34,116 nucleotides of DNA from Propionibacteriales bacterium (GTDB lineage Bacteria > Actinomycetota > Actinomycetes > Propionibacteriales > Nocardioidaceae). The stretch spans positions 1 through 34,116 of the forward strand of contig WHTB01000012.1 of the NCBI GenBank assembly GCA_009379735.1, read 5' to 3'. Below, piece by piece: positions 6,041 to 26,156 of the stretch; the stretch's first letter is position 1, and every line of letters begins with the position of its first letter. Made by a program: the position numbers and the translations under genes. The notes under the pieces are model-generated. The model was not told the origin of the DNA. It did no database searches and was given only the letters and a program-made list of their open reading frames with translations.

Positions 6041-6064
6041 ACCGGTCCGGTGAACCCACCCCCT

Positions 6065-6087
6065 CGCACCGAGGTTGCGCGTGTGAC
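6065..6087 (+). repeat. Single copy of the dispersed palindromic repeat
   Basis: This is a plus-orientation variant of the 23-bp repeat (CACCGAGGTTGCGCGTGTG core) between the nasB stop and the nirB promoter. It is flanked by CGGTCC/GGTGGG-rich sequence but has no inverted partner here. Confidence 0.7.
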
Positions 6088-21641: not shown

Positions 21642-21905
21642 GTGAACGAACCCGACAACTTGTGGGCCTGCATCGTCCACGTCAAGAAGCCGGGTGGCGA
21701 TGCGGTAACCGTGTTCCTCATCGATGCCCGCCGCTACCCCGATGACCACGCGGCCGGTGACGTCGTAAGCGAGGCCGGGGTTACGTCGACCCGCTGGCTA
21801 ACTGCCCGGGTGCAACGTCCGAAGAACAGAGCCGCGGAGGGCTCCAGGCTTCGGACGTCGTGCCGCGCTGGGGCACGCCACCTCATCGACTGGCGCGTTG
21901 CGTAG
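21642..21905 (+). CDS. Small ORF in the repeat island, possibly a remnant
   Basis: This encodes 87 residues from a GTG preceded by a GGAGGAGACGAGGAGG-type purine stretch, a plausible ribosome site. The first 55 residues (DNLWACIVHVKKPGGDAVTV, then FLIDARRYPDD) look like real protein with beta-strand alternation and moderately biased codons. After 21815 the frame runs into two hairpins and becomes Arg-rich, so the natural C-terminus was probably lost or never existed. No family is recognised. Confidence 0.4.
   Translation: MNEPDNLWACIVHVKKPGGDAVTVFLIDARRYPDDHAAGDVVSEAGVTSTRWLTARVQRPKNRAAEGSRLRTSCRAGARHLIDWRVA
21815..21858. repeat. Hairpin with 10-bp outer and 5-bp inner stem
   Basis: ACGTCCGAAG (21815-21824) and CTTCGGACGT (21849-21858) are perfect inverted copies, with GAGCC/GGCTC as an inner stem. 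The hairpin sits inside the 3' part of the small ORF. It may be a terminator or the end of an inserted element. Confidence 0.55.
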
Positions 21906-23908: not shown

Positions 23909-25213
23909 TCAGTTCGCGAGCGTGTAGTCGGGCACGACCTCGGCCTTGTACGTCTTGGCGACTGCGGCGAGCGCGGCCTTGGGGTCCTTGCCCTGGACCA
24001 TCGTCTCGACCGCCATCTTGTCGAGCCCGGCGAAGAACTGGCCACCCTCGGGGATCCACGGACGGGCCACGGCCGCGTCGACGACCGGCTTGAACGCCGA
24101 CACGATCGGGTTGTCGGCGACTGTGTCGATCTCGTACGCCGACTTGCGCGTCGGCAGCAGGCCGAGCTCCTCGGCGAGGAACGCCTGCGACTCCGCCGAG
24201 TTCATGAAGCTGACGAACGCGAGGGCCGCGTCGGCCTTCTCCTCGTCCATGCCCGAGTAGACGACGTAGTTGTGACCGCCGACCGGGGCACCCGCAGCCG
24301 CGGAACCTCCTGGCACGGCGGAGATGCCGAGGTTCTCGACGCCACCGAACGGGGCGGCGTTGCGGATGTTGTTGACCTCCCAGGGGCCGTTGATGATCAT
24401 GCCGACCTTGCCCTCGGTGAAGCTGGTCATCATCGCCGCGTACGCGTCGTTGGCCGGCGGCTTCGGGGCGGCGCCGCTGTCGATCAGCTTGACCGCCTCG
24501 GACACGCCGGCGACGTTGGCGTCCGATCCGACCACGATCTCCTCGGCCTCGCTGTCGACCAGGTCGCCGCCCTCGCCGTACATGAACGGCAGCAGGAAGT
24601 AGCCCGCCGGGTTGAGGTAGATGCCGTCGACCCCGTTCTTCTTCAGCGCCTGCGCGGCGGTCTCGACCTCGGCCCAGGTCGTCGGGGGCTCGGTGATGCC
24701 GGCCTGGTCGAACAGCTCCTTGTTGTAGAGCAGCGCCAGCGAGTCGGTCACCTGGGGCACGCCGTACGTCTTGCCGTCGAACTCGTTGGACGACAGCGGC
24801 GTCTCGAAGTAGTCGTCGGCGTCCTCGAGCACCGTGGTGCCGTCCAGCGCGTACAGGTAGCCGAGGGACGCGAACTCCGGCACCCAGGCGACCTCGGCGC
24901 GGAGGATGTCGGGGGCGCCCTGCTCGGCCTCGGCGGCCGTCTTGAACTTGTTCTGCGCCTCGCCGAACGGCACCGACTGGAGGGTCACGTCGACGTTGGG
25001 GTACTCCTTCTCGAAGTCCGCCACCAGCTGCTTGAAGGCCGGTGCCTCGTTGGTCGCGTCGGAGGTGTCCCAGAAGGTCAGAGAGCCCGAGACCTCGTCG
25101 GGTGCCGGGGCGTCGGACTTCTTGCTCCCGCTCGAGGCGTCGTCGCCGCCGCAGGCGGCCAGGACGAGGGCGAGCGTGGTGGTCGCAGTGGCAGCTGCCA
25201 GGGCGCGGCGCAT
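23909..25213 (-). CDS. malE: Sugar-binding lipoprotein, MalE type
   Basis: This encodes 434 residues, the extracellular solute-binding protein (family 1) of the importer. The lipoprotein signal has a positive start (MRR), a hydrophobic core and lipobox LAAC with Cys21 as the lipidated residue. A Ser/Lys-rich linker follows. The SGSLTFWDTSDATNE start of the mature domain and the PFGEAQNKFKTAAEAEQGAPDI region resemble maltose/maltodextrin-binding proteins of Streptomyces. The ATG at 25213 is chosen because of the signal peptide and the AAGGAG site 7 bp upstream; a longer frame runs back through the palindromic repeats and is not credible. It is the first gene of malEFG; no LacI regulator or glycosidase is adjacent. 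Confidence 0.92.
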   Translation of the reverse strand: MRRALAAATATTTLALVLAACGGDDASSGSKKSDAPAPDEVSGSLTFWDTSDATNEAPAFKQLVADFEKEYPNVDVTLQSVPFGEAQNKFKTAAEAEQGAPDILRAEVAWVPEFASLGYLYALDGTTVLEDADDYFETPLSSNEFDGKTYGVPQVTDSLALLYNKELFDQAGITEPPTTWAEVETAAQALKKNGVDGIYLNPAGYFLLPFMYGEGGDLVDSEAEEIVVGSDANVAGVSEAVKLIDSGAAPKPPANDAYAAMMTSFTEGKVGMIINGPWEVNNIRNAAPFGGVENLGISAVPGGSAAAGAPVGGHNYVVYSGMDEEKADAALAFVSFMNSAESQAFLAEELGLLPTRKSAYEIDTVADNPIVSAFKPVVDAAVARPWIPEGGQFFAGLDKMAVETMVQGKDPKAALAAVAKTYKAEVVPDYTLAN

Positions 25214-25268
25214 AAGGGCGCTCCTTGGTGATGTGACGGATCGGAGACGGCGCGTTCGCGCCGGGAGC

Positions 25269-25274
25269 AACCTA
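25269..25274 (-). promoter_or_regulatory. Candidate malE extended -10 box
   Basis: On the minus strand, TGCTAGGTT combines a TGN extension with TAGGTT (TANNNT), 55 bp before the malE start. No good -35 is seen. A GGCGCG/CGCGCC inverted repeat lies between this box and the gene. Confidence 0.35.
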
Positions 25275-25320
25275 GCAAGTCTCTGCCCGAAATGGGTGCA
25301 GTTCCGCCCGACCAGCTCCA

Positions 25321-25343
25321 CGCGCCGAGGTTGCGCGTATGTC
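25321..25343 (+). repeat. Single plus copy of the dispersed palindromic repeat
   Basis: This copy is an exact match to the core CGAGGTTGCGCGTATGTC and lies 9 bp before the first paired cassette. It has no inverted partner of its own, so the cassette series starts with a double plus copy. Confidence 0.8.
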
Positions 25344-25352
25344 CGGGATCTT

Positions 25353-25508
25353 CGCGTCGAGGTTGCGCGTATGTCGGACCGGTGGCGACTCACCCCCACC
25401 CGTACCGGGTCATCCCCATGTCTGCAGGAGTGGGGGTGGTCGGGATCGGCACGGGCCCGTGCCGTTCCGGGAGCCCGGGTCGGCGGACATACGTGCAACC
25501 TCGGCGGG
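25353..25508. repeat. Structured cassette 1 bounded by inverted repeat copies
   Basis: A plus copy of the dispersed repeat (25353-25375) and a minus copy (25486-25508) enclose 110 bp containing two strong hairpins: CACCCCCAC/GTGGGGGTG (25391-25399 with 25430-25438) and the perfect 18-bp palindrome CGGCACGGGCCCGTGCCG (25447-25464). The unit is nearly identical to cassette 2, 188 bp away. No ORF with codon bias is present. It resembles paired REP (REPIN/BIME-like) or MITE elements. Confidence 0.8.
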
Positions 25509-25540
25509 AGGTGGTGGCCGGGGCGCGCACACCACCCCTT

Positions 25541-25698
25541 CGCGTCGAGGTTGCGCATATGTCGGACCGGTGGCGACTCACCCCCACCCGTACCGGGTCA
25601 TCCCCATGTCTGCAGGAGTGGGGGTGGTCGGGATCGGCACGGGCCCGTGCCGTTCCCGGAGCCCCCGAGCCGGTCGACATACGTGCAACCTCGGCGCG
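25541..25698. repeat. Structured cassette 2, direct copy of cassette 1
   Basis: The boundaries are plus repeat 25541-25563 and minus repeat 25676-25698. The inner hairpins are at 25579-25587 with the matching arm about 30 bp on, and 25635-25652. The first ~115 bp are almost unchanged from cassette 1; the differences cluster near the right boundary. It ends 11 bp before the soxR stop, so it may also serve as the soxR 3' structure. Confidence 0.8.
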
Positions 25699-25709
25699 AA
25701 GGGATGGGG

Positions 25710-26156
25710 TCAGTGGGGGTGCAGGTAGTAGGCGCCGGGGCCGCGGGACGCGACGACGTCGTCGGGGTTGGACAGCGAGCAGGTCCGCAGGGACAGGCAA
25801 CCGCAGCCGATGCAGCCGGTCAGCTTGGTCTTGAGCCGCTGGATCTCGGCGATTCGCTGGTCCAGCCGGTCCTGCCAGCCACGTGACAGCCGGGCCCAGT
25901 CGGCCTTGTTGGGCGTACGGTTCTCGGGCAGCGTGGCGAGCGCGTCGCGGATCTCGTCGATGGACAGACCCACCCGCTGCGCCGACCTGATGAACGCGAC
26001 GCGGCGGAGCTGGCTGCGGTGGAAGCGGCGCTGGTTGCCCGTGGTCCGGGTCGCGAAGATCAGTCCCTCGCTCTCGTAGTACCGCAGGGCTGACGTGGCC
26101 ACGCCGGACCGCTCGGACAGCTCGCCGATGGTGATCCTGTCGCCGAGCTTCGTCAT
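25710..26156 (-). CDS. soxR: Redox-sensing MerR-family regulator SoxR
   Basis: This encodes 148 residues. The N-terminal MerR winged helix is ITIGELSERSGVATSALRYYESEGL, followed by a dimerisation helix and the [2Fe-2S] sensor Cys115-x2-Cys118-x-Cys120-x5-Cys126, which matches SoxR exactly. SoxR is activated by redox-cycling compounds or superoxide and twists a 19-20-bp-spaced promoter. The start is the ATG at 26156, preceded by AGGAGGT. It is divergent from the split transketolase with 74 bp between the starts, so that operon is the most likely local target. In actinobacteria, SoxR usually answers endogenous redox-active metabolites rather than superoxide. Confidence 0.95.
   Translation of the reverse strand: MTKLGDRITIGELSERSGVATSALRYYESEGLIFATRTTGNQRRFHRSQLRRVAFIRSAQRVGLSIDEIRDALATLPENRTPNKADWARLSRGWQDRLDQRIAEIQRLKTKLTGCIGCGCLSLRTCSLSNPDDVVASRGPGAYYLHPH

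Follow-up and report, generated by a model that had tools for sequence, protein, structure and literature searches.

The analysed window (34,116 nucleotides of contig WHTB01000012.1 of a Propionibacteriales bacterium) contains, between malE-like and soxR-like genes, two units that are likely to be copies of a lineage-specific, non-autonomous, MITE/REPIN-like intergenic element. The repeats of this family are numerous in the genome, share a regular architecture, lie at the 3' ends of genes and are inherited over the whole unit; they are absent from relatives, one of which has element-free sites. The best-described short mobile repeats are those of Proteobacteria, in which RAYTs are believed to move REPINs. 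The present family is well populated and genome-specific, belongs to an actinobacterium with no evident RAYT and includes a composite in which two repeat families are nested, and so offers a tractable case for studying the spread of short repeats and the reasons for their location behind genes.

The two units and their neighbourhood

The units span positions 25352–25509 and 25540–25699 and share one plan: a 24-bp terminal repeat (TR), a core of ~91 bp with two hairpins and an inverted TR, ~157 bp overall. Unit 1 consists of the left TR (TCGCGTCGAGGTTGCGCGTATGTC; 25352–25375, plus strand), the core (25381–25471, plus), which comprises a single arm, a CTGCAG-centred hairpin and a GGGCCC-centred palindrome, and the right TR (25486–25509, minus). 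In unit 2, the left TR (25540–25563, plus) is followed by a core with 99% identity to that of unit 1 (25569–25658, plus) and by the right TR (25676–25699, minus), which is sense to soxR and lies 10 bp past its stop codon. A further TR (25320–25343, plus) precedes unit 1 in tandem, with a spacing of 32 bp to the left TR of that unit. The initial annotation had described two near-identical cassettes of ~157 bp, direct copies 188 bp apart and bounded by inverted repeat copies, and this description was confirmed, with TR(+) on the left and TR(−) on the right of both units and the 18-bp palindrome CGGCACGGGCCCGTGCCG within them. The 9-bp stem that it had also proposed (CACCCCCAC/GTGGGGGTG) is present, but it is only one of two competing pairings in both window copies, since the first hairpin is longer across the core family (consensus CCCGATCATCCCCAC...GTGGGGATGATCGGG). 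The 5' arm of the first hairpin recurs in the single arm that lies outside it (CACCCCCAC / CATCCCCAC; window positions 25391–25439); a comparable repeated arm (CGCCCCAGG) was seen in double-hairpin copies of G094, a genome from another genus of the family, and the two pairings compete in both genomes.

Both flanking genes are on the minus strand: the soxR-like MerR regulator gene (25710–26156; MerR domains and gene call) ends at 25710, and the malE-like solute-binding protein gene (23909–25213) starts at 25213. The cluster begins 10 bp past the soxR stop codon and stops 106 bp short of the malE start, and the units probably form part of the soxR transcript, as its 3' tail. The nearest named malE relative found was that of Nocardioides allogilvus (63% identity); on this one protein, the genome appears to fall within the Nocardioidaceae. 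Two other TR sites were detected in the window, namely, a cluster in the order +---- (88–247), 22 bp behind a gene, and a solo TR (6064–6087, plus), 23 bp behind a gene, whose matching site in the related genome G023 carries no TR. A 42-nt repeat (GCGTTGCGTAGGCCCGG...TACGGAACGC) that has copies at loci L097, L101 and L102 is also present at position 21895.

Copy number, inheritance and relatives

The initial annotation had suggested a mobile or recently duplicated unit, and copies elsewhere in the genome were found. The 17-nt TR pattern, with up to two mismatches, gave 268 matches in the single draft genome of the genus that underlies the copy data (483 contigs) and 0 for the reversed control; thus, TR abundance is not due to chance. 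The core was found at ~27 places in the genome, about half of them between inverted TRs and the rest without TR, and these repeat families are not restricted to the malE–soxR interval. The TR consensus is TCGCGYCGAGGTTGCRCGTATGTC (24–26 bp). Direct neighbours were spaced at 32 bp in 64 pairs, and tandem neighbours were similar above chance. In 39 of the 46 mixed clusters, plus-oriented copies preceded minus-oriented ones (shuffled mean 12.3, maximum 22), the cluster centre being occupied either by a core or by a short loop, of which several types recur. Inverted TR pairs were 90% alike and singlets 82%, from only 16 and 13 sequences, respectively. A TR does not form a hairpin of its own, because its 5-bp stem is not maintained (28 copies with CC at pair 3–17 and 69 with CA at pair 4–16). 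Long gene-end mosaics of further low-copy repeats (for example, TTCATTTCTTCCCAGGAA and GTGTCATCTGGTGGGCCTGACGCCGCGG) lie between TR arrays at L037:1560–1970, L101:1480–1950, L097 and L119:2060–2390.

Beyond the core, the TR–core–TR composites have linkers in common: CGACCG on the left side and CCCCGAGCCGGCG on the right. At TR position 16, the left arm carries G in 12 of 12 composites and the right arm carries A in 9 of 12 (manual count). The composite cores were 90% and the solo cores 82% similar. The window pair has private variants and forms a separate branch of its own among the cores, which points to recent local duplication or conversion. The two TR arms show no covariation and retain variants specific to each arm, so the composite was copied as one unit and as DNA. 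Together with the many copies in one genome, the absence from relatives and the element-free sites in one of them, these common linkers, arm-specific variants and shared private mutations favour a mobile or recently duplicated unit, and the TR–core–TR element was probably once mobile, although recent movement is not directly visible with a single draft genome for the genus.

Among 196 further genomes in the family, three had isolated single TR matches when up to one mismatch was allowed, and the 21-nt form of the TR had no match in other species of a collection of 84,980 genomes. No relative of the core was found by DNA similarity in 57 other genomes; the relatives searched included no other species of the source genus. 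A phage or plasmid origin was rejected, as plasmids and phages gave no TR match and viral contigs one lone match. Sites without the element were found in G023 (1.2 Mb compared; malE 75% identical): at four insertion sites whose two flanking genes are adjacent in G023, the element is absent and the gap is shorter at each. For the solo core site at L022, the gap is 163 bp in its own genome versus 27 bp in G023 (manual count between stop codons). G023 is too diverged for the exact element ends to be read, and such a comparison is impossible at malE–soxR itself, as none of the examined relatives had a soxR match in its malE loci.

The core covariance model gave four weak matches in G094, which belong to a dispersed family with a single arm, a CTGCAG-centred hairpin and a GGGCCC-centred palindrome in the same order and of other sequence. 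Dispersed double-palindrome elements of core-like layout and different sequence were observed at L198–L205 (G094) and L206–L214 (G103), in another genus of the family. The count of tandem palindromes in 250 kb of G023 was not above the Markov control; consequently, a double-hairpin layout is not a feature of the family at large.

Placement behind genes and alternative readings

The outermost TR lies at a median of 22 bp from a stop codon versus 139.5 bp from a start codon (~70 clusters), and in tandem-gene intervals the median stop-side gap is 20 bp versus 91 bp under random placement (0 of 2000 trials), both values being derived from 282 kb of loci selected for TR or core content, with simple in-house gene calls. 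This tight placement, 7–30 bp past stop codons, would suit functional RNA 3'-end structures, such as bidirectional terminators or mRNA-stabilising hairpins, multiplied by selection behind genes. The units also fold very stably compared with shuffled sequence (for unit 1, z −5.4 on one strand and −5.9 on the other; for unit 2, z −9.0 on the minus strand), and some of the G094 double-hairpin elements, of like layout and different sequence, are located directly behind stop codons. However, placement alone matches that of ordinary REPs, which were reported within ~20 bp of ORF 3' ends by Di Nocera and colleagues (PMC3733652), and single-orientation TR arrays make no long stem. The similarity of TR partners across pairs was 0.857 versus 0.855 for shuffled partners (p = 0.39), and partners within composites were less alike than shuffled ones. 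In the core alignment, a double change was found in 2 of 22 pairs, with a covariation term of −0.01. Covariation analysis of the genomic copies, as had been proposed, thus found the two TR arms free of compensatory changes and the core nearly so, and the long stem expected from folding of the whole unit found no support as a conserved RNA. No Rfam family was matched by the units at the gathering score; the microRNA matches with low E-values scored far under this threshold and were regarded as chance matches to inverted repeats. Neither a promoter-like site nor a T-tract terminator was found in 25150–25800. The suggestion of an expressed structured RNA was therefore not upheld, a conserved RNA being rejected for lack of covariation after the Rfam, covariation and arm-partner tests, and selection for 3'-end structures is considered an unlikely explanation of the family.

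Passive spread without a transposase, through recombination or gene conversion among intergenic repeats, would account for the evident tandem expansion and for the similarity profile of the window copies, in which 127 nt of 98% identity give way to ~82% to the right of the core, as in a conversion tract. Taken alone, it leaves the first arrival at many unlinked sites unexplained, including the four that carry no element in G023, and its probability is rated as low. Still less probable is a role of the TR as the target of a DNA-binding protein, chromosome-organising or other, with a period of three helical turns: the 32-bp spacing is very strict, the 24-mer is strongly conserved and the TR itself is no conserved hairpin, but tandem neighbours are near-copies, so that duplication of a 32-bp unit may by itself give the period, no protein stands out as a candidate, and the TR is missing in all relatives searched beyond the isolated single matches.

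Relation to known repeats and proposed course of spread

According to the preferred reading of a MITE/REPIN-like element, TRs would spread chiefly as inverted pairs and grow through 32-bp tandem duplication. The core would be an older double-hairpin repeat dispersed in the genome, of which one copy may have come to lie within such a pair; the resulting composite would then have reached about a dozen sites by being copied whole, presumably by transposition, with the TRs as the putative recognition target of the moving enzyme. Most composite sites lie close behind stop codons, where insertions may be least harmful and hence tolerated; behind soxR, the composite would have been duplicated once more. 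The hairpins may act weakly as a 3'-end structure of the upstream mRNA.

The element resembles several known small bacterial repeats and is set apart from them by its own sequence. Like the REPINs, or REP doublets, associated with RAYTs in Pseudomonas (Bertels and Rainey 2011, PMC3116915), it comprises inverted pairs of short repeats with variable spacers in hundreds of intergenic copies, and inverted doublets are over-represented; a possible further parallel, from the few sequences compared above, is the greater similarity among pairs than among singlets. In contrast to REPINs, the TR is not a conserved palindrome, its consensus lacks the GTAG tag, and no RAYT was found in this genome. With the CGTC- and GTAG-tagged REPs (PMC3733652), it shares the location near ORF 3' ends and the dimers with structured spacers; the TR differs in having no tag at the expected end and no 8–9-bp stem, and in forming 32-bp tandem arrays. 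Further parallels from the same source are REPs lying inside other palindromes and CGTC REPs described as being without a dedicated transposase. The Correia elements (NEMIS) of Neisseria (PMC2229807) are, by their description, similar ~155-bp intergenic units with ~24-bp terminal inverted repeats around a core, whereas TA ends or a TA duplication were not seen for the TR units, and here the terminal repeats also occur solo and in arrays and the core also solo. The features of bacterial MITEs (PMC2229807), namely, a size of 100–200 bp, terminal inverted repeats, a non-coding core and multiple copies, were all found, but neither a parent element nor a target-site duplication was identified. An integron attC site was considered and set aside, as the GTTRRRY core site is missing from the TR and no cassette array is evident. 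No publication directly on point was found in the literature on REPINs or palindromic repeats in actinobacteria.

No RAYT was found in the genome; the sole protein with the Y1 transposase domain PF01797 belongs to an IS200/IS605-type element with tnpB, and its 3.4-kb locus contains no TR. No transposase or autonomous parent element with TR ends was seen in the loci examined. The flanks of TR pairs, read by eye, showed no constant target-site duplication, and the relatives are too diverged for exact junctions. It is conceivable, though rather doubtful, that the TR is recognised by a non-RAYT mobilisation system, as yet undescribed, that places inverted-repeat units behind stop codons and takes hairpin repeats as cargo, with the layout-alike families of G094 and G103 having arisen separately. 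An IS110-family element in at least two copies lies in C-runs beside TR clusters (L046:1–1490 in C65; L110, at the end of C274; L036, at the start of C170), and both of its right junctions abut TR-type sequence. This arrangement recalls ISPpu9, which is reported to lie inside REPs (PMC8450116), and the IS110-family element is probably a guest of the TR clusters and not their mover.
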